From a virus, in the IMG/VR virus record IMGVR_UViG_3300027782_000034, positions 108,720-172,719 of that record: 64,000 nt of DNA; one strand, 5' to 3'. The translations under genes and the position numbers were made by a program. The notes below the pieces were generated by a model. The model did no database searches. It saw only the letters and a program-made list of their open reading frames with translations, and had not been told where the DNA came from. Position 1 is the first letter of the stretch. Every line of letters starts with the position of its first letter. Below are positions 4,176 to 63,068 of the stretch, piece by piece.

Positions 4176-4574
4176 TTACAACATTTGTTTCATCAGCTCT
4201 GCTACATTAGCTTCAAATAAATTAATTGCGGGTTTTTGTTGAGACAGCACTTTTTGTAGTGCGATAGAGAAAGCTTCAATATCATCTAAGCGAACTGTCA
4301 CCAACCAAGGCTTGTGATTCCTACGGTGAAACACTGCAGGAATTTTAACAGACTTTGAGTCAGTAACAGCTTGTTCTACTGCTTCATAAATATTTAATTT
4401 CTCAACTCGTTTGCACTCTACATGTATACCGTCTAGCCCAACAACATCTTCTCCCTCTAATCCGCTATATTGCTGCCCTCTTCGGGCCTTTGCTCCAAAT
4501 AACTTATTTAGTTCTGCTGCTAATTCTCGTTCTCCTACCGCCCCTTTGTTGCGAGAATTTTTCCGTTTTGCCAT
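4176..4574 (-). CDS. PDDEXK-type nuclease, possible Holliday junction resolvase
   Basis: The 132-aa protein begins with a basic stretch, followed by a helix with GAVGERELAAEL, then DVVGLDGIHVECK. This matches the E...D...ExK active-site order of archaeal-type resolvases and related restriction-fold nucleases. The start at 4574 is preferred over the upstream in-frame ATG at 4592 because AAAGGAA sits about 7 bases before it. It directly follows the DnaQ-like exonuclease gene, fitting a role in DNA processing or repair. A VRR-type or other restriction-like nuclease is an alternative. Confidence 0.65.
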   Translation of the reverse strand: MAKRKNSRNKGAVGERELAAELNKLFGAKARRGQQYSGLEGEDVVGLDGIHVECKRVEKLNIYEAVEQAVTDSKSVKIPAVFHRRNHKPWLVTVRLDDIEAFSIALQKVLSQQKPAINLFEANVAELMKQML

Positions 4575-4588
4575 ATCTATATTTCCTT

Positions 4589-5422
4589 TCATATTAAGCG
4601 TTGTCGCCGTGTTGAGTTACGCTGCCCCATATCAGATTGCGAAGACTTGGGCCTTAGCTCCTTCTGATTCTTTGTCTGTGTTCTAAATTCTTCCATAATC
4701 CAATGTAAACATAATGAGTCAAAACCAGCACTATGCATCTGCTCCGGAGAAACACTATGCTTAGCTATCAACCCATACTGTTCTAGTATTAGTGGTAATG
4801 ACCATTTGATTCCAGCTACTTTTATTCCAATTACTCGTTTGAAATAACTTTTTAAGTCGTCTGACCTATAAGGTAATACAGCCATTCGTAAGTTAGCACA
4901 GTTAGGGCTTGATGATTCCCATATCTGCGTAGCCTTATAAATGCCACCTATATCAAAGTAATTATCAGAAGGTAATTCAAACCCTTTATTTAAGAACCTA
5001 TTAAAGTTACCACGCAGCAACCTTTCATCTGCGTTCTGCCCATTCTGAGCCACAAATGGAAGATTTCTATTGTTCCACGCATCAAACAACTTGTAATAGA
5101 ATTGTAAGGCTTGTATAGGATTGATACCAGTTTTCTTCACATGGGCTGGGAGCAATTGCCAGCCTTCACCTACGATAGATCGCATGGTGTTCAGCTTGTA
5201 GTCTAACCAATCCTCTGTAATAGAAGGATGATCATACCAGTTAAGGACAAGACTAAGTTGATCAACAACTCTGCCATCCTCAACCATTGTGTGCCCAATT
5301 TCCATAATCAGATCAGTTTGTTCGCTACTACCTGTAAACTCCGTGTCGAAACACAAATAGCTTTTAGGTAAAGTATTACCATACTTTGTGGCGAACTCTT
5401 GCCCCCATGCGTCAATAATCAT
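4589..5422 (-). CDS. DnaQ-like DEDDh 3'-5' exonuclease
   Basis: The 277-aa protein has the exonuclease I motif CFDTEFTG (DxE) near residue 25. A central QNGQNADERLL segment fits motif II, and HSAGFDSLCLHW fits the H-x4-D motif III. This is the DEDDh family that includes proofreading subunits and RNase T/oligoribonuclease. The polymerase in this phage carries its own exonuclease domain, so this enzyme probably serves another DNA or RNA trimming role. The basic C-terminal tail may bind nucleic acid. It ends in an ATGA overlap with an alternative upstream start of the nuclease gene. Confidence 0.75.
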   Translation of the reverse strand: MIIDAWGQEFATKYGNTLPKSYLCFDTEFTGSSEQTDLIMEIGHTMVEDGRVVDQLSLVLNWYDHPSITEDWLDYKLNTMRSIVGEGWQLLPAHVKKTGINPIQALQFYYKLFDAWNNRNLPFVAQNGQNADERLLRGNFNRFLNKGFELPSDNYFDIGGIYKATQIWESSSPNCANLRMAVLPYRSDDLKSYFKRVIGIKVAGIKWSLPLILEQYGLIAKHSVSPEQMHSAGFDSLCLHWIMEEFRTQTKNQKELRPKSSQSDMGQRNSTRRQRLI

Positions 5423-13326: not shown

Positions 13327-16300
13327 TTAATCAGGTTTACTGTAATTGACAACACAGCTTTCAACTCCACCGACTCCAACCGGCAATCCAAGTTCTCGAG
13401 CTTCTGCTGCTGTTAAAAGTTCACCCCAATGCTTTACCACTTCCATTTCAATCCCTAAGTAATATGGGCCGGTTCCAGTTGGTAACCCATCTAAGCTAGA
13501 AGGATAGATTGGAACTGCGTCTCGCATGAAAGTAGGCAAAACATATTCGCAAACATGTTTTACATGTTCGTAAGGAACCTCAAGCAGCACTGCATCGTGG
13601 ATTTGGAGCAATACTTTAAACAAGTCTTTACCCTGCTTTAACTGCTTTTCCTTGTAATCGTGGATATAAGCCAAAGCACGGCTAACCGCTGAAGCAATCA
13701 TAGATTGAATTGGGTAGTTCATAGCTTGCCTTTCAAACTCACCTTCTAGACCTCTGTCAGAGTGAGCTTCGGGAAACCTACGAAACCTACCATAGCAATT
13801 ACACAAGTAACGCCCAGCTACTGTCTCGCCGGTCTTTGGATCTATGTAACTTCCAGTTGCTCGATCTTTGCATTCTTTAAAGAATGGATTTAACCTTGGA
13901 TACATTTGGAAAATTGCATCGATGACCGCCTGTGCTTCATCTACTTCAATTTCAATACCTTGCTCTTTTGCTGCTATCGCAATTGCTTTAGGGCCTCGAC
14001 CATATGCAATGCCGAAAATTACAGACTTGGCTACGATCCTAATGTGCTTTTTACCTATAGCAGCTAAACCACTTTTAGTAGGTGGGCAATCTAACTTAAA
14101 TGCAAAGCAAGCCACTTGGCTGTGTATGTCATAATAATCTGGATGATTCTCAGGCAGTTGATTTCGCAACGCATGTTTAATCATATTTTCGTCACCAGAC
14201 ATAACTGCCATTCCGAATAACTCTGCACCAACATAATCTGCCTCTACCATCACATGGCCAGGCGAAGCTTTTAGCACACTACGCAAAGTGTATTTGTAAT
14301 CTTCCTCCCCAAGTAGCCGTTTGTAGTCTGGGTCTCGCTGCTTACTAATGTTTTGTAAGTTAGGGCGAGCACTAGACCACCTTCCAGTCTCCTTGGTTTG
14401 ATAGACATGAGTACGCACTTTGCCATCATCGCAGCACAAAGAAGCAAGTCCATCGTTGTACTCTAAGTTACCATCGTCATCGTACATTGATTCTTCGGTA
14501 GCCTCGTCACAAGTAGGAGGATGCAAAACTGTTTTCAAGACTTGATCTAAGAATCGGTAATCACGCAGTTGATTTATTAACTTTGCTTTACCTTCATTAG
14601 AAGTTGCTTGAGCCAACAATGATAAAATCATTTTGTTAGTAGATGGAGCGTGCTCCGCCGACCTACCTAACTTTTTAACTTCAGACCAAGGCTTAGGCGG
14701 TTTACCTGTGTCAAACAATGGCTCTAAGTTTAAGCTAACTGCACCCGCTGGCCTTAACCTTATTACATCTCCAGTTTTACTGTCTTTCTTACCATTAAGA
14801 GCATGACCATAAAGAAATTCTCGCACATGTTGCGTAGACCTAATATTAAACTCGGGCCATTTGATTTCTGTGCGTAGCTTTACTTCAAGTGTATTCTTTG
14901 CATGCATGAATCGTTTAGTTAGAAAATCAATACGATCCTTGTCTACAGTAATTCCAGTCCGGTGTATCTCTAACACCGCAGGGGTTGCAATCTGAGATTC
15001 CCAAAATGCTTCTCGACAGTTATTACCTTCGTAATCTTCATCAAGTAACACTGACAACTTGTAGAACAACCGCAAAGTAACATCAGCATCGTACATACCA
15101 TAAGGCAGCAAAATATCGTCAGGGCACTCTCCATAACCTTCTAGATCTGCATTAGTGATACCTTGAGATTTGCAGTAAGCTGTCTTCCAATGTTGCAGTT
15201 CTCGGTCATACCTTGGAGCCGAAGTATACCGCATCGCCAAAGTTTCTAACTTATAACTAGCGGTTTCTTCAATAGCATGTGCCATCAACCCTGTGTCTGC
15301 CCCACCTTCAAAATTAGTGCGATACCATGCGGGTACGATTGCTTCTTCAGTAAACCCTTCTTTCTTGTAAAGTTTAAACAATCTCTTATCCGCATTTTCT
15401 GGCTTCATTTCATAATCAAACAACTGGCATGAGAAACAAGCTTGGATGTTGATTCCGTAATCTAACAACCATTCTAAATCTGCATTGAAGAAATGCCCGA
15501 TAACTCGTTTACGCCTAAACTTAATTTCTTTGACCTCTTCAGCATCTTTGTATTTAAAGACACCGCCAAGAAAGAACATGTTTAAAAGCTTTAGAGTTTT
15601 GTCGGGTAACTGTCTTGCTCTACTAGTAGCAAAACCGGGAGTCATCTCACCCCCAGCCTCATGAAACTTGATACCAAGTGCTTTCTTCTCATACCACGAG
15701 ATTTGCATAGTTCGCATGTAAGCATTCTTGTTGATAGGATGTTTTCCATGCCATTCTGCATCTACTGCAATAATGCTGTCTCTCTTGTTCTCGTCTTTCT
15801 CAATGCTAATAAGTTGCTGCAGCAGATCCCAATGGTTATCCACCACCTTATGATCTATTACTTCTGAAGCTCCAATCGTTACTCCCTTGGTTAAAGCAAT
15901 GAAACGAGATATTCCGTTTTCTAGTTGTCTGCCCGCAGATTGATCTCGAAGTACTTGCCTAGGATGTACCACTGTCATAACCTGTGCTTCTTTCCAATGC
16001 TGCTCTTGATCTCTAGATGTAAACGCAACATTGTAGCGTAGTTTTTCTACTCTACCTTCCATCTCACCTACGCCAGCAGTACCGCCAAGCAAAGCTTTAC
16101 TAACATCCGCACCCAAGCAAAGAATGTACTTAGGTTGCACAATCTTTATCTCTTGGTAAAGCAGATGCATGCAGTCTTTGATCCAAACCGCTTTTAATGT
16201 GGTTTTGTAATCTGGCGGTTTAAACTTAACTAAATTTGTTACATAAAATTTACTTAAATTAGATGCCTTTAAATTACGAAAGGTATTAATCAATAGAGTT

Positions 16301-31469: not shown

Positions 31470-31781
31470 TTATTCTCCAAGGCGATGGGGTATCTGCATT
31501 TCATCTAACAGCTTAGTGCAGCGTGCAATAGTAACTTCTCCAAGATTTTGAATGCTTTCTAAGTCTTCCACAGTTAGCTTAGCTAGATCCCCTACAGTCA
31601 ATAGCCCATAGTTTTCTAGCGTGTTAGCTACACGGACAGGCAGTCCAACATCTGACAACGAGATAGTTTGACATTGTTCAATTCTGTCTTTCTCTTTTTC
31701 GTCGTCAGACATGAATTGCACCCAGAGTTGATCTGGGGGTTTTCTTCGTTTACGTTTGACCGGCCCGCCGTGTAGTTCCAT
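31470..31781 (-). CDS. RNA polymerase alpha-CTD-like protein (103 aa)
   Basis: After a basic N-terminus, residues about 40-100 match the helix-hairpin-helix fold of the bacterial RpoA C-terminal domain. Segments are ISLSDVGLPVRVANTLENYG, LLTVGDLAKLTVEDLESIQNLG and ARCTKLLDEMQI, compared with the family's 'L.LSVR..N.L....I.TVGDL...+..+L..+.NLG..+..E+...L'. Bacterial alpha-CTD contacts UP-element DNA and activators. A free phage copy could compete with or redirect it. ATG at 31781 with AGGTG upstream; it begins a transcript after a terminator. Confidence 0.8.
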   Translation of the reverse strand: MELHGGPVKRKRRKPPDQLWVQFMSDDEKEKDRIEQCQTISLSDVGLPVRVANTLENYGLLTVGDLAKLTVEDLESIQNLGEVTIARCTKLLDEMQIPHRLGE

Positions 31782-33441: not shown

Positions 33442-33723
33442 TTAGAGTTTCCAGTCAGGTACTTCGATGACTTTTGACTTGCTTAATTTATTTTTCCAAA
33501 CTTTTCCATTGTAGGACATATATCCTACACGCTTGTCACCTAACCAAAGGGGGGCAGGTGCCCAGTTGCCCGCCCCCACATTTTCATCATATTGCCATTT
33601 TCGAACTTTTGCTCTCATTTCTTCAATGGTGTCGGCTTTAAGCCATGCACCGCAAATGGGTTTCTCTGGGTTTTGCCCGTGGTCAATGTTACCATAGGCC
33701 GTAACAGCAATCGTTAGTCTCAT
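33442..33723 (-). CDS. hypothetical protein (93 aa)
   Basis: ATG at 33723 with AAAGGA upstream, two bases after the neighbouring stop. Trp-rich (seven Trp) but otherwise a normal globular composition, unlike the array that follows. Unknown. Confidence 0.6.
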   Translation of the reverse strand: MRLTIAVTAYGNIDHGQNPEKPICGAWLKADTIEEMRAKVRKWQYDENVGAGNWAPAPLWLGDKRVGYMSYNGKVWKNKLSKSKVIEVPDWKL

Positions 33724-34037: not shown

Positions 34038-34229
34038 TTAGAATTGTTGTGACCAATTTTCAGTTGCAGAGCTATTAATAGCCCATACACCTGAATACGC
34101 ATTGTTTACAAATCTGGATTTTGACATTGCATTGAGATTACTCAACGACCAAATCCTATTTCTATGCCAACCTTTAGAAGGGAGTTTAGTATCCCATGAA
34201 CAATTTGCAGATCGTATTCTTCTTATCAT
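34038..34229 (-). CDS. Trp-rich array protein 18 (63 aa, last)
   Basis: Starts MIRRIRSANCSW; five Trp. It ends NWSQQF and, unlike the others, does not end in a Trp-Lys/Arg/Gly Shine-Dalgarno motif, fitting its place as the final member. Confidence 0.75.
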   Translation of the reverse strand: MIRRIRSANCSWDTKLPSKGWHRNRIWSLSNLNAMSKSRFVNNAYSGVWAINSSATENWSQQF

Positions 34230-34411
34230 TGGAACATTCCTTTCCAATAAGTAGTCCAGTCAAGAGACCAAGATTCTGATCTACTTGTGGCTACAAGAAC
34301 TCTCCAACTTGCAGACCAAGAATGATTTCTTGGATAAGAGTAACTCCAAACTATAGCTTCTGTAAAAGACTTAGATTGAGCTCCTGGAAATGAGTTAGTT
34401 CTTCTTATCAT
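34226..34411 (-). CDS. Trp-rich array protein 17 (61 aa)
   Basis: MIRRTNSFPG start, six Trp. The end TYWKGMFQ contains TGGAAAGGAA, the ribosome site for protein 18; ATGA overlap. Confidence 0.78.
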   Translation of the reverse strand: MIRRTNSFPGAQSKSFTEAIVWSYSYPRNHSWSASWRVLVATSRSESWSLDWTTYWKGMFQ

Positions 34412-34626
34412 TACCTCCTCCTTCTAGGTGACGGCCAGAGTGCAACCCCATAGTCAGACCATAGGTGACGATGCGCCCAGACTTTAGAAAATGCAGGGCC
34501 AGAACCCCAGCCTCCAAAGAATGGAACACCTGGCCCTTTAACAAGTGTGCCACCCCACGAAGACCAGACATAACTGTTGTCCCAAGATCCGGTCTTAGCA
34601 TGTATTCTGGCTACCTTTCTTATCAT
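34411..34626 (-). CDS. Trp-rich array protein 16 (71 aa)
   Basis: MIRKVARIHAK start, seven Trp, Gly-rich centre (VPFFGGWGSG). It is the most divergent in composition. The C-terminus PSPRRRR is encoded by AGAAGGAGGAGG, an unusually strong Shine-Dalgarno for the next gene; stop and start overlap as TAATG. Confidence 0.75.
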   Translation of the reverse strand: MIRKVARIHAKTGSWDNSYVWSSWGGTLVKGPGVPFFGGWGSGPAFSKVWAHRHLWSDYGVALWPSPRRRR

Positions 34627-34802
34627 GCGTCTGTTCTCCAACTCTTTGATCGAACCCAAATAGCTTCAGAGAATAGACGACACAAAGACCAGCAAGCAGC
34701 ACAACTGTGCAGAGAAAGCGACCAAGGGTTAGTTGATGTTGTAGACCTTTTCATTTCTATCGTCCAATTTTTAGACCGTGTTGACGATATTATCGTTCTC
34801 AT
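34623..34802 (-). CDS. Trp-rich array protein 15 (59 aa)
   Basis: Starts MRTIISSTRSKNW instead of MIRK, but keeps the ATGA overlap, Ser/Trp content (five Trp) and KSWRTDA end. A diverged member. Confidence 0.7.
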   Translation of the reverse strand: MRTIISSTRSKNWTIEMKRSTTSTNPWSLSLHSCAACWSLCRLFSEAIWVRSKSWRTDA

Positions 34803-34984
34803 TGATTTGTTCTCCAAGAGTGGGAACGGTTGTACCATATGGAACTACCAAAATCGCTATGGGTGCGCTCACGAAACCAGTTACCTGATTTTAAATCGTA
34901 ATGATCCCATTGATTAAACCACGAACATTTCTGTTGGCAATTCCAAACATCAGAGATGATTACTGCATTTGTTTTTCTTATCAT
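34799..34984 (-). CDS. Trp-rich array protein 14 (61 aa)
   Basis: MIRKTNAVIISDVW start, six Trp, end SHSWRTNQ with TGGAGAA as the next ribosome site. ATGA overlaps at both ends. Confidence 0.77.
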   Translation of the reverse strand: MIRKTNAVIISDVWNCQQKCSWFNQWDHYDLKSGNWFRERTHSDFGSSIWYNRSHSWRTNQ

Positions 34985-35157
34985 TGAGAATTCCTTCCCC
35001 AGCACCTAGCCTTTACCCAAGTATTAGTCCAAGACCCAGAATCATAATTAGACATAGACCAAGACCAAGACTCACGCCATTCTTCTGTCCAATCCCAAGA
35101 TCTAGCACAATCCCGAGAAAAAGTCGTAGCAGCAAAACATTTTGTTTTTCTTATCAT
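34981..35157 (-). CDS. Trp-rich array protein 13 (58 aa)
   Basis: MIRKTKCFAATT start, eight Trp including SWSWS, C-terminus RCWGRNSQ (GGGGAAGGAA). ATGA overlaps at both ends. Confidence 0.8.
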   Translation of the reverse strand: MIRKTKCFAATTFSRDCARSWDWTEEWRESWSWSMSNYDSGSWTNTWVKARCWGRNSQ

Positions 35158-35345
35158 GTGCTGGTGCTCCAAGAATAAGAAGTAATTTCACCATCTTGAC
35201 CGCTAACAGATTTCCAACGAAGCCTAGTCCAACAAAAATTAATAACACTACGCTCTCGCATATCGAAGTCTGTATTGTCAACACTAGCGGAAGGTTGAGA
35301 TGTAGACCAAGCACAACCTCCCATAGCTAAAGTTTTTCTTATCAT
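35154..35345 (-). CDS. Trp-rich array protein 12 (63 aa)
   Basis: MIRKTLAMGGCAW start. Only four Trp, the fewest, and a more normal composition; ends SYSWSTST with TGGAGC. ATGA overlaps. Confidence 0.75.
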   Translation of the reverse strand: MIRKTLAMGGCAWSTSQPSASVDNTDFDMRERSVINFCWTRLRWKSVSGQDGEITSYSWSTST

Positions 35346-35506
35346 ATACGCCCTTTCCAAGATTTAGACCAAGACCCAGACCAAAACCAAGGCACAGACC
35401 AAGGCCAAGACCAAGACCCAGACCTAGGCCAAGACCCAGACTCAGCCCCAGACTCAGACCAAGACCCAGACTCAGACCCAGACCCAGACCATATTTTTCT
35501 TATCAT
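35342..35506 (-). CDS. Trp-rich array protein 11 (54 aa), low-complexity
   Basis: MIRKIWSGSGSESGSW start; ten Trp in 54 residues, almost entirely Ser, Gly, Trp and Pro. The DNA is built from TCTGGG/TCTTGG hexamers, suggesting growth by slippage. It ends KSWKGRI with TGGAAAGGG. Too short for usual gene-length cutoffs. Confidence 0.78.
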   Translation of the reverse strand: MIRKIWSGSGSESGSWSESGAESGSWPRSGSWSWPWSVPWFWSGSWSKSWKGRI

Positions 35507-35679
35507 ATATGTCCTTTCCAAGATCTAGAGCTAGCCCAGTGCCAAGACCAGGACCAAATCATAAACGAAGACCAAGACCTAATCCCGGGCCAAGACTCAG
35601 CCCAAGACTTAGACCTAAACGCAGAGCAATGCCAAGAAAGGGACATAGCCCCAGAATCAGGTCGCATTTTTCTTATCAT
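35503..35679 (-). CDS. Trp-rich array protein 10 (58 aa)
   Basis: MIRKMRPDSGAMSLSW start, nine Trp including IWSWSWHW, end RSWKGHI. Shares the TCTTGG hexamer bias and C-terminus with protein 11, so these two are probably the most recent relatives. ATGA overlaps. Confidence 0.78.
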   Translation of the reverse strand: MIRKMRPDSGAMSLSWHCSAFRSKSWAESWPGIRSWSSFMIWSWSWHWASSRSWKGHI

Positions 35680-35849
35680 GTGTTATTCCTCCATACCCAA
35701 GAACAACACCCAAACTTAGTCCAACATACAGAGTAATTGTCGGACCTACGCCAAACCTCGCACACCCAACTCCAATTCTCAGAACACCCAGACTTGCACG
35801 TAAATCCCGCCCAAGCTATAGTTCTAGGCCGTGCTAGCTTTCTTATCAT
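35676..35849 (-). CDS. Trp-rich array protein 9 (57 aa)
   Basis: MIRKLARPRTIAW start, seven Trp and five Cys (CKSGC, CEVW, CCSW). Ends SWVWRNNT with TGGAGGAA. ATGA overlaps. Confidence 0.78.
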   Translation of the reverse strand: MIRKLARPRTIAWAGFTCKSGCSENWSWVCEVWRRSDNYSVCWTKFGCCSWVWRNNT

Positions 35850-36028
35850 ATATCTCCTTTCCAAGAGGAAGATTCTATATTGTCCTCAGCCCAAGACCCG
35901 CCAATACGCCATTCTTCTGTCCAAAGATGAGCCCATGTAGGCCAAGGTCTATATTTAGCCAAACACCAAGACATGTTCGTATCTAAAGACCAAGAGAAAG
36001 ATTGGCCAAAAGCTTTTCTTCTTATCAT
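35846..36028 (-). CDS. Trp-rich array protein 8 (60 aa)
   Basis: MIRRKAFGQSFSW start, eight Trp (PWPTWAHLW), end SSSWKGDI with TGGAAAGGAG. ATGA overlaps. Confidence 0.8.
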   Translation of the reverse strand: MIRRKAFGQSFSWSLDTNMSWCLAKYRPWPTWAHLWTEEWRIGGSWAEDNIESSSWKGDI

Positions 36029-36201
36029 CGGAAAGAACTCCAAGAATTAGATCTGAGTTTTGGAAAGACCCACAAGTAGGACCAAGCTTTTCCGGAAGGC
36101 GTAGCGGTGGCTCTGTGCCAGTTCCGTGTAAAGCAAGTTCCCCATAAAAACAAGTCTGACCAATCTCTTGATCTAGGAGTTATTAATGTTTTTCTTATCA
36201 T
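36025..36201 (-). CDS. Trp-rich array protein 7 (58 aa)
   Basis: MIRKTLITPRSRDW start, six Trp, end SNSWSSFR with TGGAGT. Its composition is closer to ordinary proteins. The start lies one base after the stop of protein 6. Confidence 0.75.
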   Translation of the reverse strand: MIRKTLITPRSRDWSDLFLWGTCFTRNWHRATATPSGKAWSYLWVFPKLRSNSWSSFR

Positions 36202-36202
36202 G

Positions 36203-36385
36203 TTATCTCCATCCTATTCGCAGAATAGCTAGGGTCCAGTTTCTAGATTTCCACGCATAGCTGTAATGCCAGCGTCCGGGCCAGCCTAGAGATCCAGAAC
36301 CGGATAACAAAGACGCAGACCAGTACACAGACCCAGCCCAGTTACGAGATAGTTTTTCAGGTTCTCTCATTGTTCGTTTTATCAT
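36203..36385 (-). CDS. Trp-rich array protein 6 (60 aa)
   Basis: MIKRTMREPEKLSRNW start, seven Trp, end RIGWR followed by TAA. TGGAGATAAC doubles as the next Shine-Dalgarno. Confidence 0.78.
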   Translation of the reverse strand: MIKRTMREPEKLSRNWAGSVYWSASLLSGSGSLGWPGRWHYSYAWKSRNWTLAILRIGWR

Positions 36386-36582
36386 ATGTGGTGCTTCCAA
36401 GATCTAGGGGTGGAATCGACTACGAATTTAGAACGCAGTCTAGCTTGAGGCCAGCACTTAGTGTAAGTTTGACTTAAATGCCAGTTCCAACTCCAAGGCG
36501 CAGCCCAAGAGTGATGATGGCACCAAGAAAGACCTATGGACCAAGCTTCAGTTTGAGAATTTGCCAATACTTTTCTTATCAT
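36382..36582 (-). CDS. Trp-rich array protein 5 (66 aa)
   Basis: MIRKVLANSQTEAW start, eight Trp including APWSWNW and CHHHSW, end RSWKHHI. The His/Cys/Trp cluster could bind metal. ATGA overlaps. Confidence 0.79.
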   Translation of the reverse strand: MIRKVLANSQTEAWSIGLSWCHHHSWAAPWSWNWHLSQTYTKCWPQARLRSKFVVDSTPRSWKHHI

Positions 36583-36812
36583 GTGTCTTCTCCCCATGAC
36601 TCGGATGTAGGTGAAGACATAACAGCTGTCGCCGACCAAACCCAACCCCAAGAAGAAAAAGAAGACCAAGACTTTGCCCAAGCCCTAGTTAAACTCCAAT
36701 TTCCAAATCTGTACCTAGAATCTGACCAAGCTGCAGATTCAGTTTCGCCCCAAGGCTTATCCATAGCACCTCTCCAAGAGTATGACCCTCTATATGATAT
36801 TTTTCTTATCAT
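36579..36812 (-). CDS. Trp-rich array protein 4 (77 aa)
   Basis: MIRKISYRGSYSW start, ten Trp (SSWGWVWS), longest member; end SESWGEDT with GGGGAGAAG. ATGA overlaps. Confidence 0.8.
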   Translation of the reverse strand: MIRKISYRGSYSWRGAMDKPWGETESAAWSDSRYRFGNWSLTRAWAKSWSSFSSWGWVWSATAVMSSPTSESWGEDT

Positions 36813-36961
36813 AAGTTATTTCTCCAAGATTTAGACTTAGGACAATGCTTTTTCCATATCCAAGACCTAGACCAGCTTTTAAAAGTAAACATCCAGTGAC
36901 AAGCTGTAGGGTAAGACAAAGCCCAAGAATAAGTTTGAGAATATATTGTTTTTCTTATCAT
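36809..36961 (-). CDS. Trp-rich array protein 3 (50 aa)
   Basis: MIRKTIYSQTYSW start, six Trp, basic C-terminal half (SWIWKKHCPKSKSWRNNL). Shortest member. ATGA overlaps. Confidence 0.75.
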   Translation of the reverse strand: MIRKTIYSQTYSWALSYPTACHWMFTFKSWSRSWIWKKHCPKSKSWRNNL

Positions 36962-37167
36962 AAGTTATCCCTCCAATGCCAAGATTCAATTCTATTTTTA
37001 ACCCAAGCACCAGACCTAGCCCAAGACCCAATCCCAGACCAAGATTTAGCATAATTTTGAGACCAAGCCACAGCCACATATTGAGGTGCAAATGGCATCC
37101 AAATAGATGTATTAAAATTCTCGGCCCAAGACTCAGACCCCGCAAAATCTATACTTCTTCTTATCAT
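36958..37167 (-). CDS. Trp-rich array protein 2 (69 aa)
   Basis: MIRRSIDFAGSESW start, eight Trp, end ESWHWRDNL with TGGAGGGATAAC. ATGA overlaps. Confidence 0.79.
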   Translation of the reverse strand: MIRRSIDFAGSESWAENFNTSIWMPFAPQYVAVAWSQNYAKSWSGIGSWARSGAWVKNRIESWHWRDNL

Positions 37168-37349
37168 CGGTATTCCCTCCATGCTGTAGTGGAAATAACT
37201 TCACTATGTGACCAGTTAACTGACCAAGGCTGTATCACTGTTCTATTACATGAATACACGCAGTAGACTGTTCTAAAAGTGCTACAAGTCCAACCATTGG
37301 TCCAGAGCTGTGCTCTGGACCACGGCGGAATAGATCTTATTATTCTCAT
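37164..37349 (-). CDS. Trp-rich array protein 1 (61 aa, first)
   Basis: Starts MRIIRSIPPW, a variant of the MIRK start, with six Trp and four Cys. Ends AWREYR with TGGAGGGAA. It follows the 105-aa gene by 12 bases. Confidence 0.74.
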   Translation of the reverse strand: MRIIRSIPPWSRAQLWTNGWTCSTFRTVYCVYSCNRTVIQPWSVNWSHSEVISTTAWREYR

Positions 37350-37361
37350 ATGCACCCCTTG

Positions 37362-37679
37362 TTATGCATCCAAGGGAGCGAAGCACCAGCGTGGCTGATA
37401 GATGATCTCTATAGCACCTAAGGAGATCACAACAGAAGAACCGATTGGATCCTCTGTGTTAGGTTGCTCTTGGGAAGAAGCACCCGATGTCTCTACTGCC
37501 CTAGCTTGGGCCAACACTAGGCAGTCATCAGCCACATGGCTGAGGATTCCACGATAGTTGTAGCGGGCACAAAGCACCGCAACAGGTTGACCCAGAAACT
37601 GTTGTGCAATACTAGCCATGTTGCCAGCAAGGGTGCCATCGATGTTAACCAAAGCCACTTTGTTCTTTACTTTTGCCAT
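37362..37679 (-). CDS. hypothetical protein heading the Trp-rich array (105 aa)
   Basis: ATG at 37679 with AAGGAA upstream. N-terminus KVALVNIDGTLAGNMASIAQQ and a central VAVLCARYNYRGILSHVADD suggest an alpha/beta fold; no family recognised. It is the first gene after a terminator, so it and the 18-gene array are probably on one transcript. Confidence 0.65.
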   Translation of the reverse strand: MAKVKNKVALVNIDGTLAGNMASIAQQFLGQPVAVLCARYNYRGILSHVADDCLVLAQARAVETSGASSQEQPNTEDPIGSSVVISLGAIEIIYQPRWCFAPLDA

Positions 37680-37713
37680 AATACTAATTCCTTAAGATAA
37701 GATTGATTCCAAC

Positions 37714-37740
37714 GAAAAAGGGAGCAGACACTCTGCTCCC
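37714..37740 (-). terminator. intrinsic terminator
   Basis: Perfect 9-bp stem GGGAGCAGA/TCTGCTCCC, loop of three, followed in the minus direction by TTTTTCG. It closes the 108-aa gene and isolates the array transcript; the array promoter must lie in or before 37680-37713. Confidence 0.88.
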
Positions 37741-37775
37741 TTGGGTAAACTAAATAATATTAACAACGACACCGA

Positions 37776-38102
37776 TTAGTCTGCTACTTTACGTTCACGC
37801 TCTGCAGATAAGGGGTCATACTCACGCTGTCTGGTGACACATACCCAGCTGTTGGCGGGCAAACGGATATCCGAATGCTCATCATGTCCTACGATGGTTT
37901 CTTCTTTGGAAAAGAGATAGATATCTCCTTTTACATTTACATAGCTTTCGACTTCGGGCCCTGCTTTGATGGCATGACTGTGACCAGTCACTTCTCCGAA
38001 TGCAAGAATTCTAGATTCATGCTTCTTCATCTCCTTCAAGTCCTTGGGCTTAGCCACAGTCTTGAAAAAGATATCACCTTGACGACTTTGAAAATTCTTC
38101 AT
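37776..38102 (-). CDS. small phage protein with GHSH/H-rich motif (108 aa)
   Basis: RQGDIFF near the start, GEVTGHSHAI in the middle, then H..HSDIRLPANSW and a final VTRQREYDP. This layout recurs in small phage and plasmid proteins with a cupin-like, possibly metal-binding fold; function unknown. ATG at 38102 with AAGGAGC upstream. Confidence 0.7.
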   Translation of the reverse strand: MKNFQSRQGDIFFKTVAKPKDLKEMKKHESRILAFGEVTGHSHAIKAGPEVESYVNVKGDIYLFSKEETIVGHDEHSDIRLPANSWVCVTRQREYDPLSAERERKVAD

Positions 38103-38123
38103 ACTAATGCTCCTTCGTAAAAG

Positions 38124-38720
38124 TTAAGATTCTTGCGAAGGCTGATACTTGTCAGCCTTCATGTAATTGGTCCACGCAACTGCCTCAAGGCAAGTTTTCA
38201 TCGTGGGAGGTACGCATAAGAAGTAATTCTTAAATGTACCATCGGGCTCTGCAGTAGAGTTGACTACCTTGACATACAAGGTAGGCTCTGTGAAGACCCT
38301 TGGGATCTCAAACAGAATCCTTTCTCTTCCAAACTGATCCACATCCTTGTGGATAATTTTAGTAGTAGGCAGGGCCATAATCTTTTCTAGACCTATGACC
38401 TTCATGCCTACATATCTTACCTCAGTGTTTGGATTTCGCAACACCTCTTCTAACAAAACCGTTTCCGGCTTGGTAAAGAAATGCGGAGGAATACGCACCC
38501 CTTCATAGTAATACAGGATGCTGCCGAACTTGTCGGCATCCATCCCATGCTGTTGACCATTCTTGTACCACATTATCCTCGTTGGACTAATGTAGGCTGG
38601 CCCATTATCACAATGGAGCCTACCATCTTCATTTAAGATTCGTTTAAGTGGTCCGAACCCAAACTCTCCATTGAAGAATTTGAGTCTGGAAGTCCACGCT
38701 TCGTATCCTTGATTCTTCAT
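38124..38720 (-). CDS. DUF6745-like protein (198 aa)
   Basis: Start MKNQGYEAW at 38720 with AGGAGGAG upstream. The segment VKVVNSTAEPDGTFKNYF followed by VPPTMKTCLEAVAWTNYM resembles the C-terminal part of DUF6745-type proteins of unknown function. The CDNGPAY element in the first half is also typical of that group. Confidence 0.6.
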   Translation of the reverse strand: MKNQGYEAWTSRLKFFNGEFGFGPLKRILNEDGRLHCDNGPAYISPTRIMWYKNGQQHGMDADKFGSILYYYEGVRIPPHFFTKPETVLLEEVLRNPNTEVRYVGMKVIGLEKIMALPTTKIIHKDVDQFGRERILFEIPRVFTEPTLYVKVVNSTAEPDGTFKNYFLCVPPTMKTCLEAVAWTNYMKADKYQPSQES

Positions 38721-41274: not shown

Positions 41275-42903
41275 TTATTTGAACTTGTTGATTCGTTCGC
41301 CAATCCAACGCATTACGGGTACAGCCATGCTGTTACCTAATGCTTTGTAACGAACTCCATCTGGGCACTGATCCGCTGGCTTTTTACTCCAGGGAATCTG
41401 AGTGTAATTGTCAGGGAATCCTTGCAATCTTTCACACTCGATGGGGGTTAATCTTCGCACTGCCATGGCTTGCATGACAGTGGGGCCGGTACCTGTTCCG
41501 TCTGCTCTGTTGGTCATGGGCACTGCAACATCGCCAGTTATCGCACCATTAAACATATCTGTGCCAACTGCTTTCATAGTTGTTACAGACACTAGGTCGG
41601 TTGCGTCCTTGTAATCTCTAGCCTTCATGGCTGAGGCTGTCTGGTCGTCTGCGTATTCACCGAAGGCTTGCATTCTGAATGCGTGCATAACAGTCGGACC
41701 GCTGGCATTTACGCTGCTGCCTGATGTACCCATCGTGGCAGCAACATCTCCAGTGATCGCACCATTGTAGCAGTCAGTACCAAGCACAGGTTGCATCACA
41801 GTGGGACCAGAATGGGTCGCACTGCTGCCTGTACTTGAGGTTACGGTTGCGGAGACATCTCCAGTTACTGCACCATTGTAGCAGTCAGTACCGATGGCTA
41901 CTGCAGTCTGGTTATCTCCCATGTTGCGTCTTAATGTGCCCGCTACTTCCTCTGTGAATCGACTAGGATTACCTTCTCGAGCTGCAATGCCCGGCTCGAA
42001 GGCATAGGCTACTGCTAGCCCACGACCTTCGGTAAGGTCATCATTACCAATTCCTTTGTAGTCTCTAGCCCGCATAGCCCCTACGATGTCTTTACCATTT
42101 GGGCTTTGCCATTCACCGATGATATGACCATTGGCTATTGTTTGGTGCGTCAACTTCCCGCCACCGCATTCGGTGTCGAGACTGCCGACAACTAAATGCT
42201 CGCCTCTGGAGCTTGGCACCCCGCCATTGCCACCACTTCTGAGGCAAGCCGCAACTGCATAGTTGCCATTAGCTATTTGGTCGGAATCAACGCCGCGTTC
42301 TCCAAAGCCGCCCGTAAGAGTGGCGGCAACTCTTTTCCCCGTTTCTCTGCTCGGCGCAGGATGCCTTGACAAGCTCTCGGACTCAAATAGAACTTTTGCT
42401 GCACTCCCTGCGTCTCCAAGACATCCGACAACGAACACACGTCGCCTTCTCTGGGCCACTCCGAACCACTGAGCGTCCATGACCCTAAATGCGAACCCAT
42501 ACCCCAAGTTTCCCAACGCCCCGAGGAAGGTTCCAAAATCCCTTCCTCCGTTGGAGGACAGAACACCGGGGACGTTTTCCCAGACCATCCACCTAGGTTG
42601 GTAACGCGCAGCGATTGCAAGATAGGTAAGCATAAGGTTACCTCGGGGATCTTCGAGACCTTTTCTAAGGCCGGCGATGGAGAAGCTTTGACAGGGAGTG
42701 CCGCCGACGAGAAGATCGATTTTTTCATTTTTCCATTCCATGTACTTAGTCATATCCCCAAGGTTAGGGACTTTAGGGTAATGATGGTGGAGGACTGCAG
42801 AAGGGAATTTATCAATTTCTGAGAAGGCAACAGGCTTCCAACCAAGATGGTGCCAAGCTGCGGTTGCGGCTTCTATCCCTGAACACACTGATAAATATTT
42901 CAT
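41275..42903 (-). CDS. C5 cytosine DNA methyltransferase with internal repeats
   Basis: The 542-aa protein has the Dcm motif order: motif I LSVCSGIEAATAAW, motif IV VGGTPCQSFSIAGL with catalytic Cys, motif VI VWENVPGVLSSN and motif VIII QRRRRVFVVG. C-terminal motif IX/X is RRLTPIECERLQGFPDNY and YKALGNSMAVPV. Between VIII and IX lies a region of over 250 residues with three copies of a 'GTDxxNGAxTGDV...GPTVMQ/H' unit and two 'RDYK' units. That is much longer than in mono-specific enzymes. It probably protects phage DNA from restriction; no cognate nuclease is adjacent. Confidence 0.9.
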   Translation of the reverse strand: MKYLSVCSGIEAATAAWHHLGWKPVAFSEIDKFPSAVLHHHYPKVPNLGDMTKYMEWKNEKIDLLVGGTPCQSFSIAGLRKGLEDPRGNLMLTYLAIAARYQPRWMVWENVPGVLSSNGGRDFGTFLGALGNLGYGFAFRVMDAQWFGVAQRRRRVFVVGCLGDAGSAAKVLFESESLSRHPAPSRETGKRVAATLTGGFGERGVDSDQIANGNYAVAACLRSGGNGGVPSSRGEHLVVGSLDTECGGGKLTHQTIANGHIIGEWQSPNGKDIVGAMRARDYKGIGNDDLTEGRGLAVAYAFEPGIAAREGNPSRFTEEVAGTLRRNMGDNQTAVAIGTDCYNGAVTGDVSATVTSSTGSSATHSGPTVMQPVLGTDCYNGAITGDVAATMGTSGSSVNASGPTVMHAFRMQAFGEYADDQTASAMKARDYKDATDLVSVTTMKAVGTDMFNGAITGDVAVPMTNRADGTGTGPTVMQAMAVRRLTPIECERLQGFPDNYTQIPWSKKPADQCPDGVRYKALGNSMAVPVMRWIGERINKFK

Positions 42904-62081: not shown

Positions 62082-63068
62082 TTATGGGGTAGGTGGAGCA
62101 CCTTGTTTTAATCGTACAGAATATCCAACTGTTGAACTATCGCCACCGATGTAAACAGTAGAAGCACCATTGTTAAGATTAACACATGTAGTTTGATCGT
62201 AAACCCAGAAGCTGCCTCTTGCATTAAGATTAATAAAGCTACCTGTTCTGCAGCCAGCTGGTACTCCAGAGAAACCACTTTCATTTGTTGCAACATTAGG
62301 AGAATTCCACAACCCATCATTATTTGCAAGCGTGCCTGTCGTCTTCATCTTGGCCCCTGCAACAAACCATATGCCACCGCCTGTATCTGTGCCACCTAGG
62401 CATGTGATTAAAGTTACCCATTCTGCTAGAGTCGGCACATGGAAGCCCACTGGAGCTAATCCCCTAGCATCAGTCACAGCAAACCAATTGTAAAGTTTGC
62501 CGTAAATATCATTGTTCAAAGGGTCATTATTATAATAACACCAGCCTGGGCCTGTGGCAGCATTCCAAGCTGCCTGATCTGTAATTTGAGGAATAGGATT
62601 GCCATTCCTAAATGTTGTACCGGTAAAGTTTGTAAGTTCCCAGCCGGTAATACATGGAGGTGTAGAAGGAAGCCACACAGTTTGAACCACTTGTAGTTGC
62701 TCTAGTCGCTCCATCGCACCGAGCAGCTCTTGTACCTGTGCTTGAATCTCTTCCCAAATACTGTCTGCTTGAGCTGTGGAGGCTACATCTAATTCAATGT
62801 AATCTAGGCGATAGTAAGGCCAGTTCAAATCCGGATTTGGAGCTCCTGCAGGAACACCGGCAATCTGTTGGGGTCCAGCTACAGCTTCAAATATGTCCGT
62901 GGATAGCGTAGTGTAAGGACTAGGCGGGTTACGGCGGTACACAAAAACATTAGCGTCTATATCGGGTCCGGTTACCGCAGTGACATCTACTCGTAAGCGG
63001 TAGGTCCCATAATTTGTGTATGAAGTAGCGGTGGTTGCAGATCGTGTAAGGCATATGCGTCGAGTCAT
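62082..63068 (-). CDS. FISUMP-domain protein (328 aa)
   Basis: Residues about 150-325 match the 'Fibrobacter succinogenes major paralogous' domain: GKLYNWFAVTDARGLAPVGF, HVPTLAEWVTL, NNDGLWNSPNVATNESGFSG, AGCRTGSF and SVRLKQ. The first 130 residues are a separate beta-rich and then coiled-coil part. FISUMP domains occur in secreted and surface proteins of Bacteroidetes and Fibrobacteres and in phage tail or decoration proteins. A receptor-binding or virion surface role is inferred. Confidence 0.78.
   Translation of the reverse strand: MTRRICLTRSATTATSYTNYGTYRLRVDVTAVTGPDIDANVFVYRRNPPSPYTTLSTDIFEAVAGPQQIAGVPAGAPNPDLNWPYYRLDYIELDVASTAQADSIWEEIQAQVQELLGAMERLEQLQVVQTVWLPSTPPCITGWELTNFTGTTFRNGNPIPQITDQAAWNAATGPGWCYYNNDPLNNDIYGKLYNWFAVTDARGLAPVGFHVPTLAEWVTLITCLGGTDTGGGIWFVAGAKMKTTGTLANNDGLWNSPNVATNESGFSGVPAGCRTGSFINLNARGSFWVYDQTTCVNLNNGASTVYIGGDSSTVGYSVRLKQGAPPTP

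Follow-up and report, generated by a model that had tools for sequence, protein, structure and literature searches.

Fish antifreeze glycoprotein genes are a family that grew out of a short DNA repeat expanded in frame, and they encode one polyprotein of near-invariant repeats in an animal. In phages, precedents exist for arrays of small paralogous genes. Salmonella phage Arash (OQ632216.1), a large phage, carries nine consecutive same-strand genes of about 60 amino acids (aa) that overlap or lie close together and are annotated as hypothetical (Arash_gp73c-gp81c; L134:47003-48743, minus strand), an independent example of a mini-paralogue array. Here we describe an array of 18 tryptophan-rich mini-genes in a 64,000-nucleotide stretch of viral DNA (the window; bases 108720-172719 of the 172,719-bp virus record IMGVR_UViG_3300027782_000034). 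The array has the tandem, same-strand, overlapping layout of genes for proteins of about 60 aa that is seen in Arash. With the fish genes it appears to share an origin from a repeat; the phage, for its part, has many separate genes in which the repeats are decaying. The protein family itself is new: most Arash proteins carry an (F/L)GxxlxvGDxV-like motif and are not Trp-rich, whereas a GDxV-type motif is absent, by eye, from the mini-proteins, and no sequence relation between the two sets is evident. An earlier interpretation made without database searches (the sequence-only reading) had stated that no phage gene family with this layout is described. That holds for the family, which has no match in family libraries, but the Arash array of a different family is a precedent for the layout.

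The array extends from position 37349 to position 34038 on the minus strand of the window and consists, as the sequence-only reading had reported, of 18 consecutive Trp-rich open reading frames (ORFs) of 50-77 aa with 4-10 Trp apiece. In dinucleotide shuffles of the region (n=300), ORFs of 50-90 aa containing four or more Trp numbered 0.36 on average and 2 at most, against the 18 observed, and ORFs beginning with MI[RK][KR] numbered 0.05 on average and 2 at most, against 16. Fifteen of the 18 mini-genes have the MIR(K/R) that had been proposed as a conserved start, one has MIKR, and two are irregular (MRIIRSIPPW at 37164-37349 and MRTIISSTRSKNW at 34623-34802). Most neighbouring mini-genes are joined by a 4-nt stop/start overlap (ATGA), the exceptions being one pair with a 1-nt overlap and one pair with a 1-nt gap. 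Ahead of most mini-genes lies a GGA or GGAG Shine-Dalgarno sequence. In most genes, the Shine-Dalgarno sequence of the next mini-gene (TGGAG) includes the last Trp codon of the previous one, and this last Trp is usually 4 residues from the C-terminus. Judging from these junctions, the mini-genes are laid out for coupled translation.

Relatives of the array were identified with a DNA pattern built on the gene junction and by searching with the upstream neighbour gene; all genomes compared are metagenomic and belong to uncultured phages. Homologous arrays of about 8 to 28 genes were present in seven distinct genomes, namely that of the window and those represented by contigs L028 (178 kb), L024 (60 kb), L029 (181 kb), L030 (25 kb, cut), L031 (102 kb) and L033 (157 kb). 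L003, L005 and L009 carry the array of L028, and L032 matches L033; these were not counted as distinct. Wherever the pattern was found, its matches were confined to one array per genome. The locus always adjoins the genes for a 105-aa, a 108-aa and a DUF6745 protein, the 105-aa gene being next to the array in all seven phages, and in L029 and L031 mini-genes also sit between these flank genes. The protein of the second mini-gene of the window is identical in L024, where the gene is duplicated (L024:10735-10953), and L033 contains five near-identical, repeat-rich neighbouring mini-genes. The genome comparison shows that members are gained, lost and duplicated as whole cassettes, and the expanded paralogous family with variable copy number that the sequence-only reading had proposed was thus found. 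None of 57 loci fetched from viral contigs by a broader start-module pattern, which served as a negative control, contained an array, and a scan of genome contigs with one conserved mini-protein detected no relative. In L130, a more distant phage, the flank genes are present and the array is absent. The phage is assigned to the contractile-tailed phages by its baseplate wedge protein and its large terminase, the latter having its best annotated match in that of Salmonella phage Arash (about 30% identity). The array sits in an accessory region of a lineage of such phages with genomes of 157-181 kb.

Orthologous mini-genes keep their frame and their ends. The triplet TGG is distributed over the three frames as 604:35:150 and TCTTGG as 192:0:1, i.e., both are frame-locked. 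In clear orthologue pairs, Trp was kept at 95% of positions compared to 76% for other residues. With Trp codons left out, the pooled ratio of nonsynonymous to synonymous divergence (omega, dN/dS) over 26 orthologue groups was 0.63 (bootstrap 0.48-0.80). The frame locking, the Trp conservation and the pooled omega below 1 identify the mini-genes as genuine genes, their coding status being shown at the level of sequence comparison. The coding interpretation also survived the refutation test set for it in advance (frames lost in relatives, dN/dS near 1), as the frames were kept and the pooled value lay below 1. Ten fast orthologue groups had an omega of 1.0 (0.76-1.43), and flank genes compared between the same close phages had values of 0.015-0.09. 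By these estimates the mini-genes evolve far faster than their neighbours, yet under some constraint, which is much stronger at the Trp positions than at the remaining residues. Frameshift shuffling was considered as a diversification mechanism; compensated gaps occur in some divergent pairs, but the alignments are ambiguous and the mechanism is not claimed.

Spacing and composition were analyzed in 86 non-redundant mini-proteins, 42 of them of high complexity. Distances between Trp residues are almost always even: distances of 1, 3, 5, 7, and 9 are 3- to 30-fold rarer than expected (observed/expected near 0.03-0.3), and the largest excess is at 10, followed by 6, 20, 4, 14, and 30 (observed/expected 2.8 at 10, 2.1 at 20, and 1.8 at 30). 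The even-spacing rule persists in the 42 high-complexity members, in which the excess at 10 is 1.94 under a parity-preserving null. Ser residues stand at odd offsets from Trp, chiefly -3, -1, +1, and +7. Ser encoded by AGY also obeys the odd-offset rule (158:55), and the rule is therefore more than copies of TCT. The large and charged residues Lys, Glu, Arg, Gln, and Met share the parity of Trp, and Ser, Pro, Ala, Cys, and Asn have the opposite parity. The sequence-only reading had described the Trp residues as mostly part of Ser-Trp and the members as having little else in common besides their start. Ser precedes 42% of Trp and follows 36%, so that "mostly" was too strong, and the second statement did not hold, as the members share SxSW units, the even Trp spacing with its decad peak, and the position of the last Trp.

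The silent sites point to the origin of the array. At free codons of high-complexity members, the third base is T at 59% of odd and 24% of even positions (p=5e-16), with 33% in core genes. This alternation is independent of Trp adjacency and of the next base (p=1e-10), being weakest before C, and the silent sites therefore retain a six-base period, TCT-NNR. Synonymous change at Ser codons before Trp was 14%, compared to 16% at other Ser codons; since the former change freely, the hexamer is a relic and reflects no present constraint on the DNA. The lowest-complexity mini-genes include near-pure hexamer repeats, and orthologues are lacking for 7 of the 8 lowest-complexity members vs. 22 of 59 high-complexity members (p about 0.02). 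As in repeat-born gene families, a short in-frame DNA repeat can thus be traced in the coding sequence. These patterns argue strongly that the mini-genes were born by in-frame expansion of a TCTTGG-type hexanucleotide repeat and then decayed. The simplest account would be that such a repeat expanded and then decayed while selection maintained the Trp residues; its support is good but indirect. A new member would arise when an in-frame repeat of TCTTGG and its one-base variants, encoding Ser-Trp, Ser-Gly or Ser-Arg, expands, and it would subsequently decay into sequence of higher complexity.

The start of the mini-genes is conserved beyond its amino acids. Codons 2 and 3 are ATA in 61 of 66 and AGA in 62 of 66 starts, vs. 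54% and 34% internally. This conservation at silent sites indicates that the MIRK start is at least partly a nucleic-acid element, for initiation or as a cassette boundary. A TGGAG-N7-ATGATAAGAAAA module bounds most cassettes, and its ATGATAAGAAAA start is likewise conserved at silent sites. Such a shared boundary would allow recombination to insert, duplicate and swap members, probably also between diverged phages. Exchange of cassettes between diverged phages has probably occurred, since two cross-clade pairs of mini-genes have 78-80% nucleotide identity and a synonymous divergence (dS) of about 0.2, while the core is about 69% identical with saturated dS. Neither the Trp periodicity nor the hexanucleotide origin featured in the sequence-only reading.

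The mini-proteins gave no match at a meaningful E-value in Pfam, PHROGs or PADLOC (best single-member E about 0.06), none in NCBIfam for the three members tested, and none up to E=10 in a sequence-profile search of the PDB. Scanning 50,697 phage records with two members returned nothing meaningful, and no description of the array was found in the literature searched, which covered few subscription papers. The Trp-rich mini-proteins are an undescribed family. An apparent likeness to the "virulence associated protein" gene of S-SCSM1 was rejected as due to chance; it spans 102 bp of repetitive sequence within a large virion gene. Members are 41-85 aa long and contain 18.5% Ser, 11.4% Trp, 9% Arg, and 5.7% Gly, with Trp and Arg together making up about 20% of residues; the net charge has a median of +6 and is positive in 91% of members. 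They resemble indolicidin and tritrpticin in being Trp-rich and mostly basic, but are longer, Ser-rich, strictly alternating with a period of two residues and encoded in an operon-like array. Spaced Trp anchors on a probably disordered chain are also a feature of Argonaute-hook (GW/WG) proteins; in the mini-proteins, however, Gly precedes only 4% and follows 5% of Trp, far below the values for Ser, and these are phage proteins with no link to Argonaute. No hydrophobic 19-mer was found in any of the 86 members by a hydropathy proxy, and no membrane span was predicted. Two AlphaFold (AF2) models, made with 7 and 107 sequences, had a predicted confidence (pLDDT) of about 50 and no confident strands.

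The explanation that we favour, and hold to be probable by a modest measure, is that of a translated, repeat-born and cassette-swapped array of Trp-anchored host-interaction proteins. The weaker part of this explanation is that the products may form disordered or extended chains in which Trp occupies one parity and the small residues Ser, Ala, Cys, and Pro occupy the other. Several Trp anchors per chain would bind host proteins or nucleic acid, and the phage would use its variable set for host take-over or counter-defence. Binding through Trp anchors is suggested by the composition and the Trp conservation, and dealings with the host by the fact that this accessory locus evolves rapidly and in modules. 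Fast-evolving accessory mini-genes of phages usually act in host take-over or counter-defence, and the suggested role is drawn from this established phage biology. Several observations weigh against the favoured explanation. No link between the array and a defence system was found. Exchange between clades rests on two pairs, and omega above 1 was demonstrated for no member. Some divergent pairs contain compensated non-triplet gaps or replaced or shifted segments, which make omega unreliable there. The parity of Ser and Trp is partly expected from hexamer ancestry without structural selection, and low AlphaFold confidence is no proof of disorder, because the alignments were shallow or hard to align. 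In its functional half, the favoured explanation overlaps with an anti-defence explanation, in which the products are diversified inhibitors of defence or host targets, each blocking a different protein through Trp-centred motifs, so that the array forms a swappable arsenal. We regard this as plausible, though short of probable. The fast evolution relative to the neighbours, the gain and loss of cassettes and the single accessory locus fit such an arsenal, as does a methyltransferase-like gene (41275-42903, recognized by eye only) about 4 kb upstream, whereas the PADLOC scan was without match and no member has a demonstrated omega above 1. The selection for diversity that had been proposed is accordingly only suggested, as even the fast subset, with its omega of 1.0, shows no clear excess over neutrality.

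If the ORFs were by-products of a non-coding TCTTGG-type DNA or RNA repeat with a role in recombination, packaging or RNA function, the six-base periodicity at silent sites and the near-pure repeats in some members would be accounted for. The strict frame locking of TGG, the maintenance of starts, Shine-Dalgarno sequences and ATGA overlaps across related genomes, the pooled omega below 1, the 95% Trp conservation and the lack of conservation at the silent site of TCTTGG have already largely refuted this account, which we consider highly improbable. Aromatic-sticker condensates would suit the composition, the positive charge, the low predicted order and the regular Trp spacing; here Trp and Arg would be the stickers and Ser and Gly the spacers of proteins that phase-separate or coat the phage's nucleic acid, with many variants co-assembling. 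The conservation of Trp positions looks over-specific for stickers, however, and 18 separate genes are left unexplained, which makes this rather unlikely. Short Trp-ladder beta folds with a decad repeat, small residues inside and Trp outside, acting as structural or ligand-binding parts, would explain the decad peak, the strict alternation and the small residues opposite Trp. The decad excess and the parity could fit a decad beta-solenoid of the midge antifreeze type, with its 10-residue repeat of inward small and outward aromatic residues, but the AlphaFold models were unconfident and showed no confident strands with either 7 or 107 sequences, the PDB gave no match, and the alternation can be inherited from hexamer repeats; we find such folds unlikely. 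Membrane-active Trp/Arg-rich peptides of the antimicrobial type, with a role in lysis or superinfection, had been suggested by the sequence-only reading. The prevailing positive charge and the Trp and Arg content agree with this, but the suggestion is disfavoured and decidedly unlikely, given that none of the 86 members has a hydrophobic 19-residue segment, that lengths of 41-85 aa exceed those of typical peptides of this class, and that the locus lies outside any recognized lysis cassette. We tentatively consider, as a doubtful rather than a probable idea, that the locus is a continuous gene nursery, in which repeat expansion would create Trp-anchor mini-genes and the best binders would be retained, diversified and traded between phages. 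The boundary module, with its Shine-Dalgarno sequence and start codon, would make each new cassette translatable at once.

The individual mini-genes, all on the minus strand, are numbered in the direction of transcription. Mini-gene 1 (37164-37349; 61 aa, 6 Trp) is the one with the irregular MRIIRSIPPW start, and a GTG start upstream at 37355 is possible; its orthologues are L028:10333-10512 and L022:4226-4417. It is followed by mini-genes 2 (36958-37167; 69 aa, 8 Trp), 3 (36809-36961; 50 aa, 6 Trp), 4 (36579-36812; 77 aa, 10 Trp) and 5 (36382-36582; 66 aa, 8 Trp), the last with an orthologue in L028 and an omega of about 1.2. Mini-gene 6 (36203-36385; 60 aa, 7 Trp) has the MIKR start, mini-gene 7 (36025-36201; 58 aa, 6 Trp) an omega of 0.2-0.3, and mini-gene 8 (35846-36028; 60 aa, 8 Trp) belongs to a family with members as little as about 40% identical in L029, L030, and L031. 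Mini-gene 9 (35676-35849; 57 aa, 7 Trp) shares 64% amino acid and 80% nucleotide identity with L030:11475-11642, while the core genes of the same two phages are about 69% identical with saturated dS. Mini-gene 10 (35503-35679; 58 aa, 9 Trp) is of low complexity. Mini-gene 11 (35342-35506; 54 aa, 10 Trp) is a near-pure (TCTNGG)n hexamer repeat and probably the youngest member of the array. Mini-genes 12 (35154-35345; 63 aa, 4 Trp), 13 (34981-35157; 58 aa, 8 Trp) and 14 (34799-34984; 61 aa, 6 Trp) precede mini-gene 15 (34623-34802; about 59 aa, 5 Trp), for which the ATG at 34802 overlapping the previous stop was chosen as start (MRTIISSTR). Mini-gene 16 (34411-34626; 71 aa, 7 Trp) is among the most conserved, with 92-94% identity, and mini-genes 17 (34226-34411; 61 aa, 6 Trp) and 18 (34038-34229; 63 aa, 5 Trp) end the array. 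The gene at 33442-33723, which encodes 6 Trp, was rejected as a member, as it is an ordinary conserved gene with 3-4 Trp in relatives.

Directly upstream of the array lies the 105-aa gene (37362-37679, minus strand), which has a weak match to DUF6897 below the curated cut-off. It is preceded by a candidate intrinsic terminator (37718-37742, minus strand; an 11-bp stem followed by a T run, from a consensus scan only), and the 105-aa gene and the array may therefore form one transcription unit. Further upstream on the same strand are the conserved 108-aa gene (37776-38102; phrog_27831) and the conserved DUF6745 gene (38124-38720; 198 aa). The order of this conserved trio (37362-38720 in the window; L130:8600-9999) differs between array-bearing and array-less phages. 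A distant phage fragment (L128:2259-2468, plus strand) carries a single 69-aa ORF with five Trp that overlaps the DUF6745 stop by ATGA and may be an isolated relative of the array or its precursor. An Rfam search of the window gave no match, and the stretches scanned for a phage tRNA-Trp yielded none.

Other genes of these phages were also noted. The product of the methyltransferase-like gene (minus strand, 542 aa) resembles, by eye, a DNA cytosine-5 methyltransferase (CSGIEAAT, GGTPCQSFS) and contains internal repeats (GTDCYNGAITGDV) in mid-protein. A 103-aa protein (31470-31781, minus strand) has a bacterial RNA polymerase alpha C-terminal domain (PF03118, E 2.5e-11) and might redirect the host RNA polymerase. 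In the same genome beyond the window, a 1239-aa protein (L106:13791-17507, minus strand) has a weak match to phrog_3015, a phage RNA polymerase beta subunit (E 7e-7), which may mean that the virus encodes a multi-subunit RNA polymerase. Repetitive, GC-rich ORFs of the type MVQFGVVRIGRRGEGWRGVARRGMAGEVRPGEV occur at L004:3224-3606 (plus strand) and, in similar form, in L029 (around 4300-4700; 13670-13951), forming another short-repeat island in the array-bearing phage group. A 328-aa protein (62082-63068, minus strand) presumably resembles proteins with a FISUMP domain; these are frequent in Bacteroidota and Fibrobacterota, which gives a possible hint at the host.

The array represents an undescribed family that occurs in the same place in seven phage genomes and follows an unusual rule, by which Trp residues lie an even number of positions apart and Ser residues an odd number of positions from Trp. 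As a series from near-pure DNA repeat to conserved gene can be observed at this locus, de novo gene birth in phages becomes testable, as does the way in which a translated repeat becomes a selected protein. A gene nursery, if that idea is true, would need neither reverse transcription nor site-specific recombination to make a swappable binding repertoire. Should the products have host or defence proteins as their targets, the array would be a ready library of Trp-anchored inhibitors.

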